From Elusimicrobiota bacterium (GTDB lineage: Bacteria; Elusimicrobiota; Elusimicrobia; 2-02-FULL-39-32): a stretch of DNA of 64,000 nt. The stretch is from assembly GCA_016180425.1 (NCBI GenBank), contig JACPBF010000001.1, positions 264,744 through 328,743 on the forward strand, in the 5' to 3' direction. Below the pieces are notes generated by a model. It ran no database searches. It saw only the letters and a list, made by a program, of their open reading frames with translations, and was not told the origin of the DNA. Shown here piece after piece: positions 30,045-60,679 of the stretch (position 1 is the first letter of the stretch; each line of letters opens with the position of its first letter). Both the position numbers and the translations under genes were made by a program.

Positions 30045-33000
30045 TTACCTTTGAACCGCAATCTTGAGGGTCTTTTTGTCTCCTCCGCCCTTAATTAAGG
30101 CGAAATAGACCCCGCTTGCTACATCTTTTCCATCTTCATTCTTTGCATTCCAGTTCACTATGCCAGTGGCATCAGCCTTTAATTGTTTTACTAAATCTCC
30201 AGCAAGTGTATATATCTGGATGGTTGAATTTACAGGCATTAAATCAAACGTAATACCTTGAGCTAGTTGAGATGCAACCGTTGGTCTGAATGGATTTGGA
30301 TATACAATTGTATTAGCTAGATTAGCAGCAGGAGCTGCAATCACAATTCTGAATTGAGTAAGGTGAGTTACTTTACCACTCACATTTCCACCTGCTTTAA
30401 GGGATGATTCCTTAATCTTAATGTATTTACTATCAGGATTAAGGAACGCAAGTTTTACTAATTCAATTGATTTTCCAGATAGTTTAGTTATTATTTGACC
30501 TTCATTAGTCTTCAGAATGATAGTAATTAGCTTCTTGAATTCTGTCTTACCACTCTCTAACTTAATATCCAAGGCAACACCTACACCTTCCACTCCGGGC
30601 GTATCAGCTGCGGGATTGGTAACTACAGTAGGAGTTAAGAACTTATCAGCGCCATCTAAAGCGCCTTTAGGTGTTTCAATAGTAATTTCACTTACTACTA
30701 CACCACCCAGAGAAACTTCTGTAATTGTATAAGTTACAGTGTTATCCTTGTTAGGATCAATTGTGGGATCTCCGGATTTTAAAGTAACGCTTACAGAAGC
30801 TTTGATAGTTGCAGTAGCAGTAGAGTAAACAGCTGTATTATCAGAAATATTTCCAGATTCATCAAAGGCTCTAACTATAAACCAGAAGTCACCATCACTT
30901 GAGAATGATCCAGATTCAGGTATTGTAAGAGTTTTCTGAACAGTAGCTCCTGGAGCTATTGATCCAGTGCCAGCAGTTCCATTCACAATTAATGAGTCTG
31001 TCCCAATAGTTAAAGTTTGAGTTGAAACAACCAATCCTCTTGTACTGCTAGTTGAGAAGTTAAATGGCGCTGAATTTTTTACAGTATCTGTTGAAATCGC
31101 GCTATTTCTATGACCATATGGTAAGAATTGTGCCCAGGTATTTGCAAAATTATAATTTGTTGCAAATCCAGTTAAAGCTGCGCCACTTAATCCCTGTAGA
31201 GCTTGAACTGGATAACAAGGAGCACACCCCTGACCTCTCTCACTAGATCCAGAAGAGTAATACACAATAAATCCTGCGCCAGCTGTTAAACTGCCAGTTG
31301 TTCCATCATCTCCTGGAGCTATCCATTGTAACGTAACCTCTTTTGTTCCAGCTGATAGAACCGTTAGCCCTGTTGGCACGTTAGGCGCTGAAGATTCGCT
31401 TACAGTAAATTGCGCTAAAGTATTTGTTGAGAATAATGTACGGCCAAGCACAGATTTACTAGCTCCAGGATAGGTTCCAGGATCAATTGTAGTGGAAACA
31501 CTAATGACCCACGCACCTGGCATCTTCCCAGTTGGGAAACTAAATGTTGCAGTTGTACCTGTGCTATCTACTAATGTTAAAGCTGCAGAAAAAGTAGCTG
31601 AACTCGCTGCAGTAGCTGCAACATATTCAGTTGATGCAGAGGCTGGAGAAAATTTAGCTTGTACAGTAGTTCCAACAGTTAGCCCTCTACCATAAAGAGT
31701 TACGGTTGTAGCCCCACTATTACCTCCAGTAATTGGAGTTATAGAATTAACAGCCGGTACGCTTGCAATAGAAATACCTGTTGCAACTGATCTTACCCTT
31801 GCATTACTATAGGCAACAGTAGGATGAACCCTATCAATAACCATGCTATAGGAAGCAACTGCGCTGCCTGTTCCAGTAGCAGATCTTAAATCAAAGCTAA
31901 CGGTTGCGCTGGTTCTAGCCACACCAAGAACAGTTAAGGAAGCACTCCCGATCTTTGCAGCATCAGAACCATCAAGATAAAGTTCTGCTGTAGTTCCATT
32001 CATCAGGCCCGTCCCAATAATAGTAAATGTAGCAAATTCCATAGTAGCGTAATTTGTATTATCTACATTAGAAACACTTGTAACTGTAGAAGCAAGAAGT
32101 GTTAAAGAACCAACAGCTGTTCTAGCATTTGTAACCACACCAACCACATCTGCAACTGAAGTAGTTAGAGTTACAGTGAATACCCCTGTAGAAACTGATC
32201 CAAATAAACCAGAACTTACACCTGCTACAGTTGCAGTGCCTGGGATAGTAACTAACATTGTTTGTCCATGATTTAAAATAACGCCAGTTTCACTGCCAGT
32301 AGTATGCGTAAAAGTAGTAAAATTTATATTCCCATTAGCATGAGTTATTGAGAATGTAACAGAAGATCCAAGAACAAAACCTCTACCCTGAAGCGCTACA
32401 ACAACATTATGAGTAGAGTTATATAAAGTGCCATTAGGAATATCAGTTATAACTGGGGTTGTTATAGTAGTGATGGCAATGGATGAAACCCAGAGCGCAT
32501 TTGGACTATATATAACACTCCCACCAGATAAACTCGCAAGACCTTGAATATTTACAGTAGATTCTGCTATAAATTCAGAAGTTGCACGGTTACCTAAAGC
32601 TGTTGATGCAGTTACATTATAAAATTTGCCGGGAGACATCCCTCTAAAATTAACACCTGAGAGCGTTCCTGTTCGGCTTGAAGAATCTACATTTAGTAAT
32701 GCAACAGCAGTTGTAAATGAAGATCCATCTACCGCAACAAATGATATTGTAGAACCTACCATTAGTCCCCAACCGTTTACTGTAAAATCATAGCTTCTGG
32801 TATTTGCAACTGCGCTAGATGTTCGCACATCAGTTCCACTTGACAGTAGAATTGAAGATATAGACATACTTGCAATATTTACACTAATATTTGGCGATTG
32901 AGCAATTACAGTAGAAACAGAAATGGCTGTATCTGAATTAGAAAAACCACCGCCCGTAACACAACCTGACCCTATATAAAAGTAATATCCCTCAGTTGCA

Positions 33001-35753
33001 TTTGTTTTAGGTGTAAATGTTGCAGTTGCCCAACTACTGCTATTTACAGTAAAAGAGTTAACAATAGCATTCTTTGCAAAAACTTGAGGGATACCGGATG
33101 CAAGTATTGAACCTTGTGGAGCAGTAGAAATCCAAAGAGTTGTACCGCTTATTAATCCAGTGCCATTGATATTAACAGATGTAGCCGCAGCGCTAGCAAT
33201 TAATAAGGTTGAATCTCCTGTTTGTGCATAAACTGCTGTAATTGTTGGAGTGGAGAATGTTATAGTAGATGGGGAAATTGCAGAATGCCAGACTCCATTG
33301 ACATTTGTCGAAATACGCACATACCATGGATTAAAACCACTTGTATTTTCAGGAGTTTTCAAGCCAAAAATATTTCCATTGGCTCGAATAATTGTGGAAT
33401 TAGTAGATGCTGTTACAGTTAAGCTAACTTTGCCCCCAATTTGATCTGGTCCAATTTCTAGATTTGAAGTTGTGGTAAGAAAAACTGTACCTACTGTTGA
33501 ATCCCCACCACCTGTTATATTTCTTGAAAACATTGGCCCATTAGATGAATAAGAAATTAATACGAATTGTGCTTGAGTAGAGGTAATCACAGGACCACTT
33601 GAGGAAGTTAACCCATCATCAGGTTGACTGATAAGATTGTATTGAAATTTAGTTAATATAAGAGCATTTTCCTTTTTACCCTGCATTGTAATACCACTAT
33701 CTACCCCTGTCTTAGTAGTATATACAACTGTATAAGTTAATGGAAAAGTTGCGCTAGCAGTAGAAGCAGCAATGCTTCTAAATTGAGCTAACCCATTATG
33801 CACATTTACACCACTATCTGCAGAAGGATTAAAACTAGTTACATTAATATGACGGCTTGCTACAGCAGTATTGGCACTAAACTCTGTTACTGTCCCTGTA
33901 GAGAGAAAGCTACTATCTTCACTGATTGAGTCTGCAGCAGAAGGAGCAAATCTGAAATTGCCTCCTCTTGCAAATCTATCGGATACCTGTTCATTTAGTG
34001 AAGTTATAGTAAAAGAGGAAGTTAAAACATCTCCAAGTCCCCAAGCCACTGAAGTTGTAGTAATGCTTACACCAATAAACGGAGCGCCTGCTGAAATATC
34101 CCCGGAAACTGCTGTAGCGCTAGTTGGACGGCTTGCAAATGTTGGAGTAGATACACCTATAAAATTTACATTAATTGCTTGAGAAAAAATATTTCCTGTT
34201 GAAGCAGTACTTACACTTACAATTGTATGACTCGTGGCTTGCACAAAAGCCCAAACAGAACCAGTACCAGAAGAGGCAGACACGCTCATTGTAGCTCCAG
34301 AAGCTACATAAATTGCATACGTACCAGCAGTGGATGATAATCCACCTTCTGTCTCAGTTGGAGAATCAGCTGGATTTAAATCATTTAGAATCGCTCCAGC
34401 TCCACCATCTGTAATATTAGAGCGCACACGAACAGCACTAAGAGCTGTGCCATAAGAATCTTGCACAGTTCCACTTAAAGTTAAAAAATTTAAAGATGCT
34501 AAACCATTAGCATGTTTGAAAATTCCAAGAGGAATTCGACCATCAGTGGGGTTATTTAAAATACCACCTTTAGTTGCTGTTAAACCAGAAACAAGATTAG
34601 CTTTACCTAACTGAACCCCTGTAATATTTTCACTAAAATCATCAAAGAAACTTCCTGTTGACCCAAAAACAGCCCAGAGATTACTGCTCTTTACATAAGA
34701 AACAATCAATCCTCGAGCACTGGCTGTATTATCAATTGTCTGAGCATCCCCATCATCAATCTTTTGGATATACCAGCAAGAAGAGATATTTCTTCTTTGA
34801 ACAGCATATTTTACTCCTACAGAACTATTGGTATAAACAATTCGGGTTACATTGCCTGCATCTATAACATAAATATTACTCATTGAACCGCTATCAATTG
34901 TATCTCTTGCCTCTACAATTGCACCTGCACTAATATTTACTAGCTTAAGAGCATTTGCAAGCGCATCATAATAAACAACACCTCTTTGTTGATTTGTGCT
35001 ATTAAGGAAGGAAGAAAAATATCCAGTACTTCCAATATTACCTGAACCACTAGAAAGCACCGTAATAAATGAACCAAGAGTATCTGCTGAAGCTCCAAAA
35101 GTAATAGAGCTAGCCTCTAAACTATAGCGAGCGCCATCTGCTGATAGCGAAGAATAAACAAGTAAAAATCCATTGCCAGAAGCATTCGCGCTTAATCCTG
35201 ATGCAGTTACTAAACCACTTCCAAGAATAAATTGAGGACTTTGATTTTGCGTTGTTCCAACTAAATAATTAATTGTTTTAGAAGAGGTATCATAAAAATA
35301 AACATGAGGAACACCAGCATCTGTATAAGCAACATTAAGATATGCAGGCGCACTTCTAGTAGCATTAATAGCGCCTGTACTTAATGTACTTATAGTATAA
35401 CTGCCATTTGCAGTGTTAGATGCAAGCATAATAGAAAAAGTTGTAGCGCTTTTTGTGGTGTAAAATACATGAATATAATTATTTGCTACATCCTTTGCTT
35501 GCACCATTTCATCAACGGTCGTATTATTTATAACAGTAGGCGTGCCTACTGAAATGGTCAATGCTTGTGCCCGGGTAGAGATGGATAAAAACATTATTGC
35601 GGCTAACCCGAAACTGGCAAGCATTGTACCAACACTGGCTATGGCTGACGATACAAATGATCGCTTCATTCTTTGCCCTCCCAATTTAGTTTTCGCGATT
35701 GATCGCGAATTATTTTCTATATTGCTTGATTTTTTAAAATAAGATAAATGCAT
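30045..35753 (-). CDS. Large secreted surface protein with IPT/TIG-like repeats, Fn3 and sorting-type C-terminus
   Basis: About 1,900 residues. A signal segment lies near LASFGLAAIMFLSIS. An N-terminal beta-rich part (roughly the first 400 residues) may form a propeller. Five repeats about 110-130 residues apart each contain a G-x-GL/GF-x2-GTT/GST core (GTGLISGTT, GWGLMVGST, GRGFVLGSS, GTGLMNGTT, GRGLTVGTT), as in IPT/TIG folds. An Fn3-like domain follows (PTGLTVLSAGTKEVTLQW). The last 90 residues are a FlgD-like/T9SS-type sorting domain (VYPNPFRP, IYTLAGDLV, WNAKNEDGKDVASGVYFALI). Two starts have good ribosome sites: ATG 35753 (GGAGGA) and ATG 35669 (GGGAGG). The shorter one gives a more normal signal peptide. 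The PorV-like gene lies 14 bases downstream. Confidence 0.85.
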   Translation of the reverse strand: MHLSYFKKSSNIENNSRSIAKTKLGGQRMKRSFVSSAIASVGTMLASFGLAAIMFLSISTRAQALTISVGTPTVINNTTVDEMVQAKDVANNYIHVFYTTKSATTFSIMLASNTANGSYTISTLSTGAINATRSAPAYLNVAYTDAGVPHVYFYDTSSKTINYLVGTTQNQSPQFILGSGLVTASGLSANASGNGFLLVYSSLSADGARYSLEASSITFGASADTLGSFITVLSSGSGNIGSTGYFSSFLNSTNQQRGVVYYDALANALKLVNISAGAIVEARDTIDSGSMSNIYVIDAGNVTRIVYTNSSVGVKYAVQRRNISSCWYIQKIDDGDAQTIDNTASARGLIVSYVKSSNLWAVFGSTGSFFDDFSENITGVQLGKANLVSGLTATKGGILNNPTDGRIPLGIFKHANGLASLNFLTLSGTVQDSYGTALSAVRVRSNITDGGAGAILNDLNPADSPTETEGGLSSTAGTYAIYVASGATMSVSASSGTGSVWAFVQATSHTIVSVSTASTGNIFSQAINVNFIGVSTPTFASRPTSATAVSGDISAGAPFIGVSITTTSVAWGLGDVLTSSFTITSLNEQVSDRFARGGNFRFAPSAADSISEDSSFLSTGTVTEFSANTAVASRHINVTSFNPSADSGVNVHNGLAQFRSIAASTASATFPLTYTVVYTTKTGVDSGITMQGKKENALILTKFQYNLISQPDDGLTSSSGPVITSTQAQFVLISYSSNGPMFSRNITGGGDSTVGTVFLTTTSNLEIGPDQIGGKVSLTVTASTNSTIIRANGNIFGLKTPENTSGFNPWYVRISTNVNGVWHSAISPSTITFSTPTITAVYAQTGDSTLLIASAAATSVNINGTGLISGTTLWISTAPQGSILASGIPQVFAKNAIVNSFTVNSSSWATATFTPKTNATEGYYFYIGSGCVTGGGFSNSDTAISVSTVIAQSPNISVNIASMSISSILLSSGTDVRTSSAVANTRSYDFTVNGWGLMVGSTISFVAVDGSSFTTAVALLNVDSSSRTGTLSGVNFRGMSPGKFYNVTASTALGNRATSEFIAESTVNIQGLASLSGGSVIYSPNALWVSSIAITTITTPVITDIPNGTLYNSTHNVVVALQGRGFVLGSSVTFSITHANGNINFTTFTHTTGSETGVILNHGQTMLVTIPGTATVAGVSSGLFGSVSTGVFTVTLTTSVADVVGVVTNARTAVGSLTLLASTVTSVSNVDNTNYATMEFATFTIIGTGLMNGTTAELYLDGSDAAKIGSASLTVLGVARTSATVSFDLRSATGTGSAVASYSMVIDRVHPTVAYSNARVRSVATGISIASVPAVNSITPITGGNSGATTVTLYGRGLTVGTTVQAKFSPASASTEYVAATAASSATFSAALTLVDSTGTTATFSFPTGKMPGAWVISVSTTIDPGTYPGASKSVLGRTLFSTNTLAQFTVSESSAPNVPTGLTVLSAGTKEVTLQWIAPGDDGTTGSLTAGAGFIVYYSSGSSERGQGCAPCYPVQALQGLSGAALTGFATNYNFANTWAQFLPYGHRNSAISTDTVKNSAPFNFSTSSTRGLVVSTQTLTIGTDSLIVNGTAGTGSIAPGATVQKTLTIPESGSFSSDGDFWFIVRAFDESGNISDNTAVYSTATATIKASVSVTLKSGDPTIDPNKDNTVTYTITEVSLGGVVVSEITIETPKGALDGADKFLTPTVVTNPAADTPGVEGVGVALDIKLESGKTEFKKLITIILKTNEGQIITKLSGKSIELVKLAFLNPDSKYIKIKESSLKAGGNVSGKVTHLTQFRIVIAAPAANLANTIVYPNPFRPTVASQLAQGITFDLMPVNSTIQIYTLAGDLVKQLKADATGIVNWNAKNEDGKDVASGVYFALIKGGGDKKTLKIAVQR
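35692..35709. repeat. Small hairpin between the two candidate starts
   Basis: TTCGCGA-TTGA-TCGCGAA forms a 7-bp stem with a four-base loop, about 12 bases upstream of the second Shine-Dalgarno (on the minus strand). It may tune choice of start or simply be coding. Confidence 0.4.
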
Positions 35754-36049
35754 GGATTCTTCCTCCATTTTATTTGGTTTTAAATAAAATTTTGATTTTT
35801 GGCGCAAAAATAAATTTGCGCCAGTGGACTGGGACTGCTCTTTTAGATTTAAGCTTTCGCTGTTAATTTTTATTTACCAATTTTTTTTTAAGGAAGGCCT
35901 GAAAAGAAAAGATACGGAGCAAGTTCGAGTGAATCTAGAAAAAAATAATAAGACAATTTATGTTTTCGAATTTTGCTTGAATCTCTTTTCTCCATGCATC
36001 CTCGACGACAATTTCTTAAAAAATTCTAACTACAATCCAACATGCAAAG

Positions 36050-51506: not shown

Positions 51507-52079
51507 TTATTGAAGCGCGACTGCGTTTACGCTAATTTGGGAAGTGGCGCTTCCACTGCCGCCTTGAGGCGCGTCAAACCTTATGTAAAGATTCCTCTCT
51601 TCATTAGGAGCAACATTAGATCCTTTTACACTGTCTATTGCATGCGATTCAGTGTCGTTGAAGAAAAGAGTGTCTGAACTAGTTTGATCGCTGACTGTTA
51701 AAATATCATTAGCTTGGAACTCATTCACAGCTGGTTTTTGATCCCACTGATGCCAAAGCGCGTATAAACGATACTGATTTGCTTGAGGAACTGTGCTCAC
51801 AAGGCTCCATGTTCCCACAGTATTTGCGACTTTAATCGCATAATTTACTGCGCCGTTACCATCATTCTTAAAGATGGTTCTATCCGTAACTTGGGCAACA
51901 CCCGGAGCTGCCATCACTGCTATGGAGTTCTCGCTTAAGCGCTGTATGGATAGATTTTGTATGGTCATCACAATATCCACTAACGCGCTCTGACCGCAAA
52001 ATGCGATGCCTTGCAAAGACATTGCAATTGCGATTCCTAATACACCTATTACTAACTTCTTTGCTGGTTTACTATTCAT
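51507..52079 (-). CDS. Small exported protein of unknown function
   Basis: A 190-residue protein with a clear signal peptide (KKLVIGVLGIAIAMSLQGIAFCG). I do not recognise the mature domain: it is Asn/Thr/Ser-rich with alternating hydrophobic residues and ends in SQISVNAVALQ, suggesting a beta-sandwich. AGGAGG nine bases before the ATG fixes the start. The gene lies 31 bases downstream of the giant ORF on the same strand, so it is probably co-transcribed with it. Its start region shares a 27-base motif with two sites at the giant ORF's 5' end. Confidence 0.75.
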   Translation of the reverse strand: MNSKPAKKLVIGVLGIAIAMSLQGIAFCGQSALVDIVMTIQNLSIQRLSENSIAVMAAPGVAQVTDRTIFKNDGNGAVNYAIKVANTVGTWSLVSTVPQANQYRLYALWHQWDQKPAVNEFQANDILTVSDQTSSDTLFFNDTESHAIDSVKGSNVAPNEERNLYIRFDAPQGGSGSATSQISVNAVALQ

Positions 52080-52110: not shown

Positions 52111-55100
52111 TCACTGCTGAATTGCAAGAGTTTCTCTTGCATGGAGAGATGCTTCCATCTCTTTAAAAACTTCAATCACTCTCGTAGCGGAACCAATGAT
52201 GAACAACTGGAGCTGTCTTGTTTTCCAACTCTCCTTAAATCTGTGAGGATTATCCGTAAATATCTGTAGGTTAAACTCCAAGCCCCTATAGATTGGAGAT
52301 TTTTTAAACCTTTCTCTTAGAATCTCATAAACCATGTCAGGATCCATCTCAATTAAGGGATCGGCCTTCTGCCTGGATAAAAGGTCTTGGCGGGTGATAA
52401 CGAATTCTCCAAATGAAACCTTCCTTAATATCTCTTCTGTAATATCCGGGAATTCCTTCTTTAACTGAGATTTTAAACTTTCAATATCAATCGAATCTTT
52501 GTTAGTAATAATAGGAAGGATCATTTTCTTTCCACTATTTTTCTCCCTATTAACTGCCAGAGTGATTCTTTTAGCTAAAACGCTGAGTTTATCTGAAGAG
52601 TCTAGACCATCAGAAAAATCAAAAAGATTTGCAAGCAGGCTTTCAGCATCTTGCGGAACAAGTTCTTCCTCAGCGTCATTTAATTTTGAATAGGATAACT
52701 CTTCAGCTTTTCTTGCTCCGTTTTTCCATACCTCTGCCAACGCTCTTTTTTGTTCTTGAGTTAATCTGGCTTGAGATAGTAGCAGGGAGATGAATATCTC
52801 AACATTTCTTAAAGTCTCTTCAAAACTTATAGCATTGGATGGATCTAGATATTCAGCTTCTCCTCCTTGCCTAAAAAGTTTCTCTAAAAACAGGCCAAAG
52901 GATTCTTTTGCCAAAATAGGATTTTTGAGATAGAATTCTCTAAATGAACTCAATGCTTCTAATGAGTCCTCTTGGGACATATAGCGCACAGTCCGCATAA
53001 AATCTTCTGGCTGGATTATCTTATTTTGATGGGCAAATGTTTTTTTAAAAGGAGCATTAAAAATAGAGGAAAACTGTAAAATCTTAAAGGTATGATGAGC
53101 TTGCGCGAAACCATCAGAAACAGCTAAATGGTTTAATCTAATTTTTCCTATTTCTGAAAGTAAAGATTTTAAAGTAAATGGAATAATTCCTTTTTTGGAT
53201 CTTAATTGTAATTTTTGAATTGTTCTACTTTTAAGTCCCTGCGCAGTTCCTTTTTTCCTTTCATATAAAGATGCCATCCTCGCTCTAACCAGAGGAAAAA
53301 AAGTTCCCAGAAGAACGATTGCCCCCAGAGGCCAACCAAAAATTCCCGCCAAAGAAGGGAGAAGAACGATTCCTAAAGCGATAAAACCCAAAATAAGAGA
53401 TAACTCCACACTCGCTTGGCCAGATTCTCCTTTATCATTTTTAACAATTCCGCCAGCTTTTTTAAACCCCGACTCTTCAGCAGTTAGAAAAGAGGGTCGC
53501 TCAAAAGAAATTTCAGAAATCTCTATTTCTTTTTCCACGTCAGAAATAGCTATAATTTCAGACATACTATTTGAGATTCCTGGAACAAAATAATCCTTTA
53601 AATTAATTCTAAACCTTTGAAATTTTCCATGTGTGTTTGGAAATTTAATGAATAATTTGTGAAAATCTTCCATCACCGCGTTCCCAACCAAACGCTGATG
53701 GAATCTATTCTTTAATTCCAATTTAAACGATGATTCTGAATTTGTCTTTACAGTCAAATGCAGTAATTGACGATCTTCTACATCTACTCCCGGCATCCCG
53801 CTCTCTATCCAGCCGCGTCCAGTATAAAGTTTAAGCGGATTGTTAGCAGGTCCTGTTTCAAATTTAAAAGATTGTGCTCCAGACTTAAAATCCAAATTTG
53901 GAAGAATGGAAAAATCTCTAAAAGCAGAAGCAAGTTCTCCATTTTCGTTCAAATAATACCTTGCGAGTTTCATTGATGTTCTACTAAAAGGCGAATTGTA
54001 AAGACGTGGAAAAATATTAAAGGAATCATAAGGAGTTCCGTTTTTAATAGAGAGCCTGCTAAACCCGGTATAATGCCCGTTCCATTCAAAAGGAAACTCT
54101 AAATCATTTTTTGTGTAAACCTTATTTTTAAATCCAAACTCTCCAATTAAAAGCCGAGAGCCTCCATAAAGCGCAATAAGATATTTTCCATTGGAACTAA
54201 GCCCAAACAGTTCGATCCCAGGATATTCATTTCTTCCATACACATATTCTAACTCTCCTGTATTCGCGTTTATAACCAAAATCGTATCTTGACTTCCAAC
54301 CAGGACTCTTTTGCCCGATAGATCAAATTGGATTTGTCTTATAGAATTCCCATACCCACTGTATGTCTTGGTTTTTTCTTCTCCTGTTTTTAAATTAGTA
54401 AATTTAATTTGAATGTTACCTGATTCATAGCTCTGGTTAATAGGCTTAAAATCTATCCTTAGGTAATTGTCTGAAGTGATCAAATGATCAATTGGAAATG
54501 GCGGAAGAATTGGACGAATTGTCGGAAGTTCCTGGTCCAGATCTGTATCAGGAGTTGGAAAAGGAACTGGTTTAGGAAGAATTGGCTGAGGATCGTAAGA
54601 AGGAATTGGGGTTTGAATAGGTGTTGGCATTGGAGTTGGTGTTAAAATCGGAGTTGGAGTTTGAATGGGTTGAGGTGTTGGGAGAGGTGTGGGTTGTGGA
54701 GTTGGCTGCGGCGTCGGACGATAAGTTGGTAAAGGTTGTGGCGTAGGAATAATTGGTACAGGAGCAACTGTTGGACTTGGAGTGGGGGTGGGCGCTGGAG
54801 TTTGTGTTGGTCGCGGATTCGGAGTTGGTTGAGGAACTGGAGTAGGTGTTGGTCCCAGTGGTGGTGGAGTAGTAACAGGATGCGGCGTTTGTACTGGCGT
54901 AGGTGTAATAATCGGTTTGGTTGTTGGTTCTGGATATGGTTTTACAGTTGGTTTTGGAGTTGGATTCGATATAGGTATAGGATCTATAATCACAACTGCT
55001 ATTAGATTGGGAATAGGAGTTGGTGTAGGCTCTGGCATTGCAGAGATAGTTGGTTCAGATGTTGCCAATGGGCTTACAGAGTCTGTTGGTAATGGAGATT

Positions 55101-58100
55101 GGACAAAATCAGAAACTGATGAAATCCGCGTAAATGGTATTCCAACATTGATCTGACCATTGTTGTCAGCTGTAGCAGTTTGAGGGATTAGACTATCAGG
55201 ATTAATATTTTCTGAAGCAATTGGTGACCCATTAGAATGAGCAGTTGATAAAGGGAATATTGCTGGTATTGGAAGTTTAACTTCAGAGGCAACACGTTTT
55301 TGAAGCGGAGCTGTATTTACCGGCATTCTGCCGCACGCGGCTAGTATAACAGCTGCGATACTAGTTGAGATCGTTTTTTTCAAATTTAATATCCCAATGA
55401 TTCTTAATTTTAGTTCTTTGTTCGCAGTTAATTGTTTTTGGAGGGACACTAAAGGTTTAGTGAGGTAGATACGAATGGTATCGTAGCCAAGTATCCTTTC
55501 TTTCTCATGAGCCAATACAATCGAAAGCATGATTTTTCTTAAATAGTCAAACTTCTTCCATTCAGTTACCAGCCACCACAATATTTCTACTTTTCCAGTC
55601 TCTTGATAAGTTTCCGCTAAAGTAGTCTTACCGGCTTCAATGAGTTTTTTTTCTAAAGATAGGGACTCTATAGGTATTCCATATTTTTCCAATTCCTCTT
55701 TTACTCCTTTAGCTAGGCTTAAATCTTTGCCATAGCTTTGAGCAAAATATCTGGCAGATACCAGCGCAAGAAATCCTAAAAATCCATGGCGTGCATAGAA
55801 CAATCCTCCTGCTAATCCATAAACGCCAATGATTCCTGAACTTATCTTTAAAATATAATCTACGAGAGGTAAACCGCTGTTTGGCAATATTCCAGCTAAA
55901 ATAATTCCAAATCCTCCAACCAGTGTCCAGAGAACCATTGCGATTAATGTCTCCACTAAATTAAATGGCTGAGGTTTGGCAAAAGAGATTTCAGAAATTA
56001 CCATTTTATCGTCTGGGTCAGAAATCGCAATAACTTCAGCTATTCTATTGGTTGTTCCTGAAAGAAATCTGCTCTTTAAATCAATCTTTATTGGCCGATA
56101 TAGGCCATGGGTATTGGGAAATTCAACAGGTATTTTATGAACCCCGTCTAACACTTCGCCAACAAGTCTTTCAAAATATTTATTTTTTAACTCCAATTTA
56201 AACTTAGTTTTCCCAAATGTTTTTGCAATAATATAAATAGAAGAATATTCTTCCAAATTTACCGGCGCCATTCTGCTTTCAATCCAGCCCCTCCAAAATC
56301 CCAGAGTAACTTTACCTTCTGAAGAAAAAGTTAATTTAGGAAGAACATTAATGGTTGTGCCTGGCAAAGGAAGGGAAGGATAAACAGGAGAATTTTCTTC
56401 CAGTAAAGGAGGCCCAAATGCAATGCTCTGAATTTCTACCCATCCTTTATCCCATCCTGATTTTGATTGAGGATCGGAAAAATAAAGCATGTCTATCATA
56501 TTAGGATTTAGATCCAATTCTCTTAAATCAATAAACCTTGTATTTGGTTTTTCCGCGGTATAACGAAATGGAACCAATATTTTTCTAACGTTATCCATGA
56601 TTGTTCCCGCTGAATTAGCCTCATAGCTATTTCTTATTTCCATTTCAAATTCCATATCTGTATTTGTTCTTCCTGTTATGTAAAGACCTGGTCTTAAATA
56701 AAGATCAATAGGAACAATTTTCATTCCAAAATAGCCAAAAGAATGAGACATTCTAAAAAGAGTTGGACTAAGATAATCAAAAAGTCCCTCAACTCGTTCT
56801 AATAATTTTTTAAATGGCAATACTTCTATAGGAGATAAAGGCGCAGGATATACTTTTAAAGGAGAGGTTGCGGAAGGATCAACTGGAGCAAAAGCAATAT
56901 GGGAAATTTCGATATTGTCGTTTGGGTCTGAAATAAACAGCGTGTTGGCTACTTTACTGGTTGTGTGGGAAAGTTTTAAATCTTCACGCAAATCAATCAC
57001 ACTTGTGTATGGCTGCCCATTATAAGCTGGAACCTGGATCATCACTTTAGGCACATCATCTATAATCCCTCCTAAAATGCTCTGCCCATAGGGGTTTTTA
57101 AGCTCCAACTCAAAATGCGTATCTTTAGAAACTTTTGTAGTGATATAAAATAAAGGCCTTTCTTCTAAATTAATGGCGGGCATAACCGTTTGTAACCACC
57201 CTTGAGAAGCATAAAGTTTTAAAATTACATTGCCGAAATTTTGGAAAGCAATTTCTTTATTAGGCCAAAAATTTAAATAAGGCATTATCTCCATGGCATA
57301 AGAAGGTATCTCCGGGGAAGAGGTTGGTGAAAAAGAACTATTCACTAATAACAGGGACCTCCTCCACAGGATCTTTACTGGTTTTTTTTCTTTCTCCAAA
57401 GAATTTTCACCAGCTTTCTCAAATTGAGTTTTCTGGCCAGTTAAAGGGACTGGTGATAAAAAATTATTTTGCATTTTACAGCTTACAGCCACTAATGCAA
57501 TTAAAAGAGGTTTCAAAGCTCGCTTTAAGAAACGCATTACAACTAAAGTTTGAACTTTTAATATCTTAAGCTCCTCAACTATTTTTTTGTTCAACTCTTG
57601 CGTCATCTGATAAAAAGATTCTTTTATCAGTTTCATTGAATCTAAACTTTTTTCAAAAAATTTAGGTTCAGGTTGGCTCAATATAAAAACAGTATCTTTA
57701 ATTTGAACAGAGATATTTTTTGGAGATTGAAGATCGCTCTTATTTTTAGTTGAGCTGTTTAAGATCGTCAAAAAAACTTCCACTTTCTTTTTCTCTTTAT
57801 CAGAAGTTTTTCCATAAAATTCAAAATGCAAACGGCCTTTTTTGAAAACGCCTTTTGTATCTCTTTCTATCTCAACTAAATCTTTTATTTTTAAATTCTT
57901 AATGGTTTGAAAGCTGTTCTCCTCTTTTAACCTGCTAAACCATTCAACCATTTCCCTTTCAATCTGTTTCTTAACGCTTTTATCTAAATTGGTTATCTGG
58001 GAAAGAGCCTTCTTTATAAATAACCCCATGGCAAATGAGAGAAATGCTCCCTCCAAAGCAGGAACAATCTGATTTAAAATTTTTCCCACAGGCGCAAAAG

Positions 58101-60438
58101 GAGAACTGGATTTAAGAGTAATGCGCTCTCCGCTAAACAGTTTTTCTAAAGGCATCTTTTCTCTATTAAAAATCTCAAGATATGCTGTTCCTTTCTTTTG
58201 GCTAATATCCATTCTTGGACTGACTACTGCATAGGCGATCTTTTGATTTTGAAGGTTTTGAGTGATCCCAGAGGTATGAAATCCACCGGCAATAAGCACT
58301 ACGACTCTACCCACATCTCGCGATTCCGTGGCTCGTGGTTTTGAGCGTTGATGCAAGCCTGGTTCAACAGAAAAGTCAATCGCAAGATTTGGAACTCTAG
58401 ATTGAAAAGAAGCCTCTTGAGCTAAGAGATTTTCCACTAAGGCATTGTTCCTCTGAATCGCAAACTGATTAAATTTTTCAAATGTACTCAAAAATCTTAA
58501 ATAAGGTTGAGCTGGAAGCGCCATTCTCTTAGGCCGGCTCGCTTCAATTGAGTTCTTTGAAAAATCCTCTAAAGAACCTTTGAATGAAATCTTAAACTCA
58601 TTCATCCTTTTTCCAATTCTTTGAATCTCATCCCTTCTTTTCTTATACTCCTCCCACTCCTCAGGACTCAAACTAAAACTTATAAGTTTTTCTAACAATC
58701 TTATGTCTTGGGAGAGTCTTATCACATTTTTTTCTTTCTGATTTACAACAAGCCGTTGAACAGTTTTTTCTTCCAACTGCGTGATTTCCTTAAATAATGG
58801 TTCTGCCTGAATAGTCTGAGTCAACAAAACATACCGAATATAGCGATCCATCTCTGGAACTTTGGCTAAACTCACACCATAAGCCTGACACAAATCTTTT
58901 AAATATTGATAAAAAGCCCCATAACTGATGTTCCCTAACCTATAAGAAAGACTAGAAGAAACTAAATTCTTTAACTCTGTTTTCGGCAAACTCTCCAATA
59001 AACTATTGGTTAAAGCTCTTCTTTCTTTCTCTACCTGCTCATAGTTTAAGGTTTCTTCCAAATTTAAAGCGCTCATGAATTTACGGATCATCTCTGAAGC
59101 AGATGGGATTCCATCCTGAGTAAGGACTTTAAGGTATTGGCTCAGTTTGATCTGACCCTTATGGTGCAAAGTCATATTTCTATCTAACTCTTTTAAATCT
59201 GAATTTAATATTTTGGTTTTAAGCAGGTTTAAAGAATTCTGCAATTCTAAAACAATTTTCTTTGCCTCTTTTTCTTCAGGAACAGAATCTTTAAAAGCTC
59301 TGACATGATTGGAGTAAAGCTTTTCATCTTCTATACCTGAAAATAAAAAAGAGTTTTTGCCTTGATCTGTAAGATTCAAGGTAAGACCCGCGTATTCCGC
59401 TCCTGAAATCATGGAATTTTTTAAAAAATAATCCGCCACATCTTTAATAATCTCTTTATCTGGAAAAGAGCGATAGGGCGCAAAATTTAACTCTCCTTTT
59501 GCTCCCTCTAAACCCACGATGATTTTGCCTTGAGCTTTAGAGTTTTGTTTTGAAATATAGGACGTATTCCTTATAAGAGACTCTAATATTTTTGCGATAT
59601 TAGCTTGAGCCTGAAAATTCTCATGCGCATCCTGAATATGCAAAACTATGCGATCCCCTGGTTTCCATTCCACAGGAAAATAAATTTCCTTAATGTCCGC
59701 GCATTCACCAGACAAAGATTCTATCCAGGAATGAAACTCTCCATCTCCCTGCTTTAAAATAGGAGCAACCCCTGATGAAAATGATTTTAAATTCAACCTG
59801 CTAAACCCTAACTCATTCTTAGGAAGGGGGTTGGGGCAGAACTGATCTTGTAAGGAAGGAATCTGCGTAAGATGAGTTATTTTTTGACTGGCCGCCTGAG
59901 GCGTCAGAGGAAGTTGCGTTAAGCTTCCTTGTGGGATTGAATTAGGGTTTAGAGGTGAATCTACAAAAAAATCGGATGTTTCAAGAATTGGTTCTTTCTT
60001 TTCTATTTTTAAAAGAGCGGCTCTGCGTTCTTTCCAAAGCTTTTGAGCTGGTTCTATTGCGCCAAAAGCTATATGAACGTAAAAGAAAATTGCGGCTAGA
60101 GCTAAAGAAACGCATTGTTTCCATTTATATATAGTTTTAAATTTAGGGGCTTGACAAATCATGCCTCCTCTGCTATATATTAATAGAACTCTACTGCTGG
60201 TGGAGTTCCTCATTGTCGTAAAAGCGGGAACTGTTGCAAGGTTCCCGCTTTCTATTTGTGGGGGACTCTTTTTAGAGCCTCCAAAAAGAAGAAGTAGAAC
60301 CCATTGATAGGTTCTGTAATATAACTTTAGAGCTGTTAATTTTTTCTGGATGGTTTCTAGATTAAACCAATCTAGAAAGATGGGCAGGGGAAATCTGTTT
60401 CCTACAAATTGCTGGTATTTGCTGGTGAAAGTTCTCAT
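52111..60438 (-). CDS. Giant multidomain protein: ChaN/EreA-like domain, four beta repeats, internal lipoboxes, Pro/Thr linker
   Basis: An unbroken 2,775-codon frame. Residues about 110-130 are a signal-like segment. Residues about 250-745 resemble the ChaN/TIKI/EreA superfamily, with LHIQDAHENF, VGLEGAKGE and LIAGGFHTSG supplying His, Glu and His. A repeat of about 110 residues (GW-x-E-x-MP/AP-V-x-EE, LELKN, IDLR/L, ISDP) occurs at about 1076, 1233, 1383 and 2208. Segments near 970-990 (PLLIALVAVSC) and 1690-1705 (IAAVILAAC) look like lipoprotein signals but are internal. A Pro/Thr linker (about 1806-1966), a propeller-like stretch (2000-2100), a membrane hairpin (about 2346-2386) and a soluble C-terminal domain follow. 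The start is uncertain: 60438, 60213 and 60162 are possible. Confidence 0.8.
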   Translation of the reverse strand: MRTFTSKYQQFVGNRFPLPIFLDWFNLETIQKKLTALKLYYRTYQWVLLLLFGGSKKSPPQIESGNLATVPAFTTMRNSTSSRVLLIYSRGGMICQAPKFKTIYKWKQCVSLALAAIFFYVHIAFGAIEPAQKLWKERRAALLKIEKKEPILETSDFFVDSPLNPNSIPQGSLTQLPLTPQAASQKITHLTQIPSLQDQFCPNPLPKNELGFSRLNLKSFSSGVAPILKQGDGEFHSWIESLSGECADIKEIYFPVEWKPGDRIVLHIQDAHENFQAQANIAKILESLIRNTSYISKQNSKAQGKIIVGLEGAKGELNFAPYRSFPDKEIIKDVADYFLKNSMISGAEYAGLTLNLTDQGKNSFLFSGIEDEKLYSNHVRAFKDSVPEEKEAKKIVLELQNSLNLLKTKILNSDLKELDRNMTLHHKGQIKLSQYLKVLTQDGIPSASEMIRKFMSALNLEETLNYEQVEKERRALTNSLLESLPKTELKNLVSSSLSYRLGNISYGAFYQYLKDLCQAYGVSLAKVPEMDRYIRYVLLTQTIQAEPLFKEITQLEEKTVQRLVVNQKEKNVIRLSQDIRLLEKLISFSLSPEEWEEYKKRRDEIQRIGKRMNEFKISFKGSLEDFSKNSIEASRPKRMALPAQPYLRFLSTFEKFNQFAIQRNNALVENLLAQEASFQSRVPNLAIDFSVEPGLHQRSKPRATESRDVGRVVVLIAGGFHTSGITQNLQNQKIAYAVVSPRMDISQKKGTAYLEIFNREKMPLEKLFSGERITLKSSSPFAPVGKILNQIVPALEGAFLSFAMGLFIKKALSQITNLDKSVKKQIEREMVEWFSRLKEENSFQTIKNLKIKDLVEIERDTKGVFKKGRLHFEFYGKTSDKEKKKVEVFLTILNSSTKNKSDLQSPKNISVQIKDTVFILSQPEPKFFEKSLDSMKLIKESFYQMTQELNKKIVEELKILKVQTLVVMRFLKRALKPLLIALVAVSCKMQNNFLSPVPLTGQKTQFEKAGENSLEKEKKPVKILWRRSLLLVNSSFSPTSSPEIPSYAMEIMPYLNFWPNKEIAFQNFGNVILKLYASQGWLQTVMPAINLEERPLFYITTKVSKDTHFELELKNPYGQSILGGIIDDVPKVMIQVPAYNGQPYTSVIDLREDLKLSHTTSKVANTLFISDPNDNIEISHIAFAPVDPSATSPLKVYPAPLSPIEVLPFKKLLERVEGLFDYLSPTLFRMSHSFGYFGMKIVPIDLYLRPGLYITGRTNTDMEFEMEIRNSYEANSAGTIMDNVRKILVPFRYTAEKPNTRFIDLRELDLNPNMIDMLYFSDPQSKSGWDKGWVEIQSIAFGPPLLEENSPVYPSLPLPGTTINVLPKLTFSSEGKVTLGFWRGWIESRMAPVNLEEYSSIYIIAKTFGKTKFKLELKNKYFERLVGEVLDGVHKIPVEFPNTHGLYRPIKIDLKSRFLSGTTNRIAEVIAISDPDDKMVISEISFAKPQPFNLVETLIAMVLWTLVGGFGIILAGILPNSGLPLVDYILKISSGIIGVYGLAGGLFYARHGFLGFLALVSARYFAQSYGKDLSLAKGVKEELEKYGIPIESLSLEKKLIEAGKTTLAETYQETGKVEILWWLVTEWKKFDYLRKIMLSIVLAHEKERILGYDTIRIYLTKPLVSLQKQLTANKELKLRIIGILNLKKTISTSIAAVILAACGRMPVNTAPLQKRVASEVKLPIPAIFPLSTAHSNGSPIASENINPDSLIPQTATADNNGQINVGIPFTRISSVSDFVQSPLPTDSVSPLATSEPTISAMPEPTPTPIPNLIAVVIIDPIPISNPTPKPTVKPYPEPTTKPIITPTPVQTPHPVTTPPPLGPTPTPVPQPTPNPRPTQTPAPTPTPSPTVAPVPIIPTPQPLPTYRPTPQPTPQPTPLPTPQPIQTPTPILTPTPMPTPIQTPIPSYDPQPILPKPVPFPTPDTDLDQELPTIRPILPPFPIDHLITSDNYLRIDFKPINQSYESGNIQIKFTNLKTGEEKTKTYSGYGNSIRQIQFDLSGKRVLVGSQDTILVINANTGELEYVYGRNEYPGIELFGLSSNGKYLIALYGGSRLLIGEFGFKNKVYTKNDLEFPFEWNGHYTGFSRLSIKNGTPYDSFNIFPRLYNSPFSRTSMKLARYYLNENGELASAFRDFSILPNLDFKSGAQSFKFETGPANNPLKLYTGRGWIESGMPGVDVEDRQLLHLTVKTNSESSFKLELKNRFHQRLVGNAVMEDFHKLFIKFPNTHGKFQRFRINLKDYFVPGISNSMSEIIAISDVEKEIEISEISFERPSFLTAEESGFKKAGGIVKNDKGESGQASVELSLILGFIALGIVLLPSLAGIFGWPLGAIVLLGTFFPLVRARMASLYERKKGTAQGLKSRTIQKLQLRSKKGIIPFTLKSLLSEIGKIRLNHLAVSDGFAQAHHTFKILQFSSIFNAPFKKTFAHQNKIIQPEDFMRTVRYMSQEDSLEALSSFREFYLKNPILAKESFGLFLEKLFRQGGEAEYLDPSNAISFEETLRNVEIFISLLLSQARLTQEQKRALAEVWKNGARKAEELSYSKLNDAEEELVPQDAESLLANLFDFSDGLDSSDKLSVLAKRITLAVNREKNSGKKMILPIITNKDSIDIESLKSQLKKEFPDITEEILRKVSFGEFVITRQDLLSRQKADPLIEMDPDMVYEILRERFKKSPIYRGLEFNLQIFTDNPHRFKESWKTRQLQLFIIGSATRVIEVFKEMEASLHARETLAIQQ
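60151..60179 (+). promoter_or_regulatory. Consensus plus-strand promoter inside the giant ORF 5' end
   Basis: TTGACA (60151-60156), 17-base spacer, TATATA (60174-60179): a near-perfect sigma-70 site, antisense to the giant ORF. It predicts a start near 60186. Confidence 0.7.
60195..60222 (-). repeat. Start-region motif, copy B
   Basis: On the minus strand TTTACGACAATGAGGAACTC followed by CACCAGCA; the ATG (60213) is in frame with the giant ORF (residue 76). Confidence 0.6.
60221..60251. terminator. GC-rich 11-bp hairpin, terminator-like on both strands
   Basis: AAAGCGGGAAC/GTTCCCGCTTT around nine bases. The plus strand continues TTTCTATTT; the minus strand continues CTTTTACG. It lies inside the annotated giant ORF (about residues 63-72), which argues that translation really begins downstream of it. 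Confidence 0.65.
60296..60378. other. Two further hairpins upstream in the giant ORF's first codons
   Basis: AGAACC/GGTTCT (60296-60315) and TTTCTAGATT-AAACC-AATCTAGAAA (60354-60378, 10-bp perfect stem). With the downstream hairpins this makes a structured block of about 190 bases, more like an untranslated leader than coding sequence. Confidence 0.5.
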
Positions 60439-60447
60439 TGTCGTAAA
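60420..60447 (-). repeat. Start-region motif, copy A
   Basis: On the minus strand TTTACGACAATGAGAACTTT followed by CACCAGCA; the ATG is the first codon (60438) of the longest giant ORF. Confidence 0.6.
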
Positions 60448-60532
60448 CCTATAAGGTTAGCTCAATCACATTTTGGGGTAACCTCTCCTTTTTTAAATTT
60501 TTTCACTTTCATTCTCCTTTCTTGCTGCGTTT

Positions 60533-60611: not shown

Positions 60612-60667
60612 AAATGAAGTGTCCGAAACTTTTCTCTAACTTTTTGTAAACTTTTTGTGACAAATTT

Positions 60668-60679
60668 TGTAACGTTACA
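60668..60679. promoter_or_regulatory. Perfect 12-bp palindrome TGTAACGTTACA, operator candidate
   Basis: The sequence has the TGTAACG-type core used by LacI-family and related repressors. It sits between the giant gene and pcm, so it could control either. Confidence 0.45.

Follow-up and report, generated by a model that had tools for sequence, protein, structure and literature searches.

We propose, on grounds that are about evenly balanced, that the protein P0001 is one of a family of giant exported envelope proteins, specific to the lineage and composed of a head, cargo modules, and a tail, and that the cysteines of its two internal lipoboxes are lipidated while the chain is cut by the ordinary lipoprotein pathway into separate envelope lipoproteins. 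In other words, several lipoproteins may be synthesised here as one continuous chain. P0001 is the product of an open reading frame of 2,775 codons in the window (the whole stretch of 64,000 nucleotides analysed here), and its residues are numbered from the first ATG. What is known of giant proteins in these uncultured lineages is chiefly their length. If the proposal holds, a defined family of head, cargo, and tail whose members carry internal export signals would account for the way in which the cell deals with proteins of 2,000-13,000 residues, as they would not necessarily be kept whole, and it would represent a bacterial polyprotein strategy built on common export peptidases.

The frame occupies positions 52,111-60,438 on the minus strand as a single frame without an internal stop, which bears out the length claimed in a preliminary description that gave no strand. 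The source genome, from an uncultured Elusimicrobiota bacterium, is a draft of 2.6 Mb in 43 contigs with a completeness of 98.5%. In the comparison of two species, P0001 against its sister-species ortholog (L054; 2,033 amino acids), dN/dS was 0.1-0.5 over most of the length, indicating that purifying selection is acting on most of the frame. That sequencing error joined separate genes, which the preliminary description had named as a possible objection, is excluded by the continuous frame in two species, by these dN/dS values, and by the presence of 20 or more further giants in the genome. The wider reading as an artefact, by which a sequencing or assembly error joined genes or the signals described below resemble export signals by chance, has next to no probability. 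No evidence in its favour was found; the genome is a draft in 43 contigs. The reading is opposed by the same selected frame in the second species, by the giants of this genome and the many in its relatives, and by the mirror and residue controls.

The first 92 codons as called are doubtful as coding sequence because they show few substitutions against L054, with a dN/dS of 0.62 and a dS of 0.07 (dS is ~0.25-1.0 over most of the remainder). M93 has AGGAGG just upstream; however, it is not conserved in L054 and is therefore a start candidate beside M1 and M76 rather than the settled start. In the leader (60,150-60,460, minus strand) the segment TTTACGACAATGAG is duplicated, with a hairpin-like sequence ahead of each copy. 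The leader repeat ACGACAATGAG was rejected as a genome-wide element since it has two local copies only, and an Rfam search of the leader gave no match. The features of the gene are listed in Table 1.

Table 1. Features of the P0001 gene and its upstream region, in the order of transcription (positions in the window).
Feature	Residues	Position	Strand	Basis or remark
Shared upstream motif, tandem TTACAAAAA-type repeats (GTTACAAAAATGTTACAAAAAGTTTAAGAAAAG)		60629..60672	-	5' of most giants in the genome
First 92 codons as called; possibly a conserved leader	1-92	60163..60438	-	dN/dS and dS; start candidates M1, M76, M93
N-terminal Sec signal peptide (KWKQCVSLALAAIFFYVHIAFGA)	93-126	60061..60162	-	alignable with paralog N-termini
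ChaN/EreA (Tiki superfamily)-like head	127-790	58069..60060	-	paralogs, PF04187, fold
Hydrophobic segment, predicted return to cytoplasm	791-807	58018..58068	-	identical in L054
Internal lipoprotein-type signal 1, lipobox AVSC, C987	965-990	57469..57546	-	lipobox scan; Cys and lipobox kept in L054
Beta-sandwich (CBM6-like jelly-roll) repeat 1	1075-1184	56887..57216	-	one of four related repeats
Beta-sandwich repeat 2	1231-1341	56416..56748	-	one of four related repeats
Beta-sandwich repeat 3	1379-1487	55978..56304	-	one of four related repeats; fold
Strong hydrophobic segment	1498-1514	55897..55947	-	
Module absent from L054: lipobox, P/T linker, propeller-like part, sandwich 4, prepilin-like segment	~1676-2402	53233..55413	-	clean in-frame indel
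Internal lipoprotein-type signal 2, lipobox LAAC, C1702	1679-1705	55324..55404	-	lipobox scan; L164 counterpart AITGC
Pro/Thr-rich linker	1703-1970	54529..55332	-	29% P, 15% T
Propeller-like part	1975-2130	54049..54516	-	weak WD40-type matches; homolog in L164
Beta-sandwich repeat 4	2204-2313	53500..53829	-	one of four related repeats
Prepilin/Flp-type class III motif GESG/QASVE and hydrophobic segment	G2340, E2345	53281..53445	-	pattern scan, paralogs
C-terminal domain, ending in the family tail (AIQQ-stop)	2411-2775	52114..53208	-	homology to other frames

A search of its own genome with P0001 returned 44 matches, mostly to the N-terminal residues 100-930 and inside other giant frames, most of which span 1,339 to 10,906 codons. 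With a family profile (A1) built from 18 heads, the family was found in 20 of 41 genomes, at 10-36 copies per positive genome, and was absent from the other 21; its longest open frame reaches 13,472 amino acids. Thirteen relatives were present in the named genome collection, all of them Elusimicrobiota, including Candidatus Obscuribacterium magneticum. In members of the family, one export signal and a ChaN/EreA-like head are followed by variable cargo, and the chain ends in a conserved C-terminal tail. The head stands at the N-terminus in 64 of the 64 frames collected, one per frame, and no second head was found within any of them.

The ChaN/EreA-like domain named in the preliminary description is upheld through the paralogs and only weakly by fold. 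Two of the 18 heads match Pfam PF04187 (ChaN/Tiki; best E 7.7e-7), and the head of P0001 itself has no match to this family. An AlphaFold model of the head (pLDDT 65.8) gave non-significant fold matches (E ~1), with ChaN (2g5g) having the highest probability among the matches listed (0.28) and EreC (6xcs) also present, and a PDB sequence search with the head profile returned spurious matches only. The assignment is probably correct but remote. The heads share the conserved QDAH, LEGA, and GGFH motifs with the ChaN/EreA/Tiki superfamily; however, they are much longer, carry a large helical insertion, and stand at the front of a giant protein.

The C-terminal domain, also claimed earlier, is homologous to that of nine other frames (~23-28% identity to the paralogs compared) and forms the exact C-terminus in all ten. 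Its final 70 residues are recognisable in ~19 frames, and 38 of 43 complete family frames end in [QNSA][QA] (IQQ, IQA, INA etc.) against 2.8% expected at a random position. This ending was found in all six genomes sampled, including those without internal lipoboxes. Head, variable cargo, and tail therefore form one unit, which speaks against accidental fusion. The cargo of other giants (frames L036, L027, L026, and L028) includes diverged versions of a SecA motor, whose KTGEGKS looks intact, of DnaJ, ABC1 kinase, M48 peptidase, and an APH-like kinase, of a portion of triosephosphate isomerase, and of the C-terminal part of GAPDH; separate, normal SecA and TpiA genes are also present in the genome.

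Two internal lipoprotein-like signals had been noticed in P0001, and both are confirmed, at C987 and C1702, each opening a module of its own and above chance in controls. The first reads MRFLKRALKPLLIALVAVS (in longer form ILKVQTLVVMRFLKRALKPLLIALVAVS) directly before C987, and the second LKLRIIGILNLKKTISTSIAAVILAA (longer form NKELKLRIIGILNLKKTISTSIAAVILAA) directly before C1702. P0001 has seven cysteines, and these two form its only [AGS]C pairs. Both sites have the basic n-region, hydrophobic core, and lipobox with cysteine of a lipoprotein signal; such a signal lies at the N-terminus of the primary product, whereas these two are internal to a single frame, with their cysteines at residues 987 and 1702. 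A low-complexity stretch was said to follow each site. This holds after C1702, where residues 1704-1970 are Pro/Thr-rich (29% P, 15% T), but the sequence after C987 is just mildly Ser/Pro-rich. The genome has one copy of the LspA gene. Internal translation restart at site 1, from an ATG before the signal, was rejected since the methionine is absent from L054.

The frequency of such sites was examined in 64 giants (258,000 amino acids, 510 cysteines) with simple pattern scans of our own rather than trained signal predictors. A first, stricter scan found five internal lipobox segments against none in mirrored sequences and missed both sites of P0001; the thresholds were then relaxed once under the same mirror control, giving nine against none in the sequences read backward. 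Cysteine is rare in the giants (0.2%), and when normalised to it the rate was 176 per 10^4, compared with 8-28 for S, T, A, V, G, L, I, F, and M at the same place, an approximately tenfold enrichment. For the genome of P0001 alone, a lipobox was found at 5 of 127 cysteines (394 per 10^4 against 13-45 for other residues). Since the sites are spread over several different giants (L034/L080, L035/L083 with two sites, L088, and P0001 with two sites), they do not reflect a single inheritance. No internal lipobox was found at the 239 cysteines of the more distant giants of genomes G003, G013, G020, and G022; therefore, it is not a family-wide requirement. Internal signals of class II and class III seem to characterise this genus; those of class II occur in one neighbouring genus as well, represented by L164.

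Two relatives, L054 and L164, were compared with P0001. In L054, site 1 and its cysteine are kept at 50% local identity, and the site-2 module is missing by an in-frame indel with the short repeat AATTAAGA at both ends. Loss in L054 is the simpler reading of this indel, because four paralogs share with P0001 a prepilin-like segment directly before the C-terminal domain. In close ortholog pairs the lipobox cysteine is kept in four of four cases, against 54 of 63 (86%) for cysteines at high identity. With this background, conservation between close species alone is no proof of function, and it was dropped as such.

L164, which comes from a different genus within the same family, is a frame of 1,614 amino acids that is cut at the contig start, so that its head is out of view. 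It runs first from a lipobox (AITG/C) through an S/T/P linker, a propeller-like part, and a sandwich to a hydrophobic region, and then from another lipobox (AIAG/C) through sandwiches 1 and 2, a P/T linker, and a sandwich to the C-terminal domain. Its two modules show 37% and 32% identity to the P0001 modules and stand in the reverse order, each headed by a full lipobox signal. L164 has two more cysteines, neither of which is matched in P0001. For the view that each signal goes with its module and that both are kept, we regard L164 as the best evidence. The swapped modules with their own lipoboxes speak against a chance resemblance and also against mere relics of fusion. The preliminary description had read the gene as several lipoproteins fused in frame. 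In support of this, the site-2 module is a discrete in-frame unit and both modules occur in swapped order in L164, each with a lipobox of its own; on the other hand, the comparison with separate genes in related genomes that had been suggested found no separate lipoprotein genes carrying these modules in 20 relatives. No relative was found that carries the whole length without signals at both sites.

It is improbable that the signals are functionless leftovers of former lipoprotein and pilin genes that were captured in frame. Capture is suggested by the diverged ordinary proteins (SecA, DnaJ, TIM, GAPDH, ABC1, M48) in the cargo of other giants, and between the two close species the retention of cysteine does not exceed the background. 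However, two complete lipoboxes were kept across genera despite the swapping of their modules while other cysteines were not, and the class III motif G-x4-E was kept in five paralogs at ~25% identity. The main alternative, which we regard as quite possible though not probable, is the topology proposed below with no cutting. P0001 would then be an uncleaved multi-pass giant surface protein, in which the internal signals act as signal-anchors, perhaps with lipidation, and keep a continuous chain in the membrane while large loops lie outside, as proposed for giant ORFs of Omnitrophota. Published reports describe giant ORFs with many transmembrane helices and adhesion domains in Omnitrophota (PMC10066038) and frequent giants in Elusimicrobiota (PMC11573180). 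The distant family members with the same architecture and no internal lipoboxes fit this reading, and the conserved head and tail on one chain suggest one unit. A plain anchor, however, needs no lipobox cysteine, yet the rare cysteines are strongly enriched exactly there, and at ~35% identity the two lipoboxes are still found with their modules.

The four related beta-sandwich repeats described earlier are confirmed at the residues given in Table 1. An AlphaFold model of the sandwich (pLDDT 87.7) is a jelly-roll whose closest PDB folds are CBM6, CBM61, and CBM11; the matches have a probability of 1.00 and a TMq of ~0.4-0.6, but none has an E below 0.001. From this model the four sandwiches are likely to be sugar-binding. 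Pfam gave no match on P0001 below E 0.05. The propeller-like part named in the preliminary description is, at ~155 residues, too short for a full propeller, and its WD40-type matches are weak (E ~0.07). Hydrophobic segments separate successive signals in both P0001 and L164.

Prepilin-type signals are found within the same giants. The motif of P0001 reads GESG/QASVELSLILGF, and other giants carry EEG/TSTVEYGLILS and RRG/FTIVEVVVSGL. In pattern scans of the same simple kind as for the lipoboxes, G-x4-E directly before a hydrophobic core occurs 38 times in the giants with E at +5, against 5-14 at other spacings, 4 in mirrored sequences, and 4-8 with other residues at the same spacing; for the genome of P0001 alone the count is 19 against 0-4 in the controls. 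No enrichment of class III signals was seen in the giants of G003, G013, G020, and G022. The segment of P0001 has the G at -1, the E at +5, and the hydrophobic core of a prepilin, but it is internal (residue 2340) and has no short N-terminal leader. The giants resemble Flp/type IV prepilins (PF04964) in G-x4-E followed by a hydrophobic core, but in the giants the motif is internal, with hundreds to thousands of residues ahead of it. The sole Pfam Flp_Fap (PF04964) match of the genome is within a giant of 5,918 amino acids, and the genome carries a gene for a prepilin peptidase. For internal signals of class I (AxA) the enrichment is only modest (24 against 12 mirrored). Between sister-species giants (L030/L090, L037/L086, L034/L080) the prepilin-like segments, such as GFTxxE, vary in number and place, as if modules were gained and lost.

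For the topology, lipidation, cleavage, and sugar binding that we infer, the following scheme may be considered. The ChaN/EreA-like head would be exported through Sec by the N-terminal signal, and the chain would return to the cytoplasm through the hydrophobic segment 791-807. Export would restart at site 1, placing the sandwiches outside, and after a second return through segment 1498-1514 it would restart at site 2, placing the linker, propeller-like part, and sandwich outside. The conserved C-terminal domain and tail would come last, the topology of the final prepilin-like segment being ambiguous in P0001. Lipidation and a cut by LspA at C987 and C1702 would release separate lipoproteins, one a CBM-like module that would bind sugar and the other a module of linker, propeller-like part, and CBM-like sandwich. 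A broader version, tentative and rather doubtful, is that the giants are true bacterial polyproteins, in which a membrane-threading chain would be cut at internal signals by signal peptidase I, LspA, and prepilin peptidase into a set of envelope lipoproteins and pilin-like parts that are made together, the modules having been shuffled from giant to giant during evolution.

A precedent for an internal signal is FbcH of Bradyrhizobium (cytochrome b/c1), which is made as one chain whose internal signal exports the downstream part and which is then cut. The signal of FbcH is of class I and lies between two respiratory subunits, whereas the giants have class II and class III signals in a modular protein. 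Giant ORFs are known in Omnitrophota and Elusimicrobiota and, in the available parts of the reports, are described as a length class with few annotated domains (PMC10066038, PMC11573180, PMC12057145). As far as these parts go, the present family is like them in its very long frames, its same or neighbouring phylum, its many hydrophobic segments, and its carbohydrate-binding or adhesion-type modules, and differs by the ChaN/EreA-like head, the conserved C-terminal tail, the shared upstream motif, and the internal class II and III signals. A literature search that was not exhaustive and did not extend to preprints turned up no account of this family, nor of lipoprotein or prepilin signals in the interior of giants. 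The internal prepilin-type signals in the same giants are new here. The preliminary description is thus supported in part; it had missed the family-wide head and tail, the internal prepilin-type signals, and the shared upstream motif.

The TTACAAAAA-type upstream motif has 25 sites in the genome (L117-L141) against none for the reversed pattern. Most of these sites precede long proteins with signal peptides, and one precedes a response-regulator frame (L132). The genes behind the GTTACAAAAATGTTACAAAAAGTTTAAGAAAAG tandem repeats form a candidate regulon.

Two other frames on the same strand may be mentioned. Downstream of the giant, after a gap of 31 bases, comes a gene of 190 codons (51,507-52,079, minus strand); it has AGGAGG, its N-terminus resembles a signal sequence, and a Pfam search of it gave no match. 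An ORF of 1,920 codons (30,045-35,807, minus strand) has a C-terminus with weak CHU_C and Por_Secre_tail (type IX secretion) matches.
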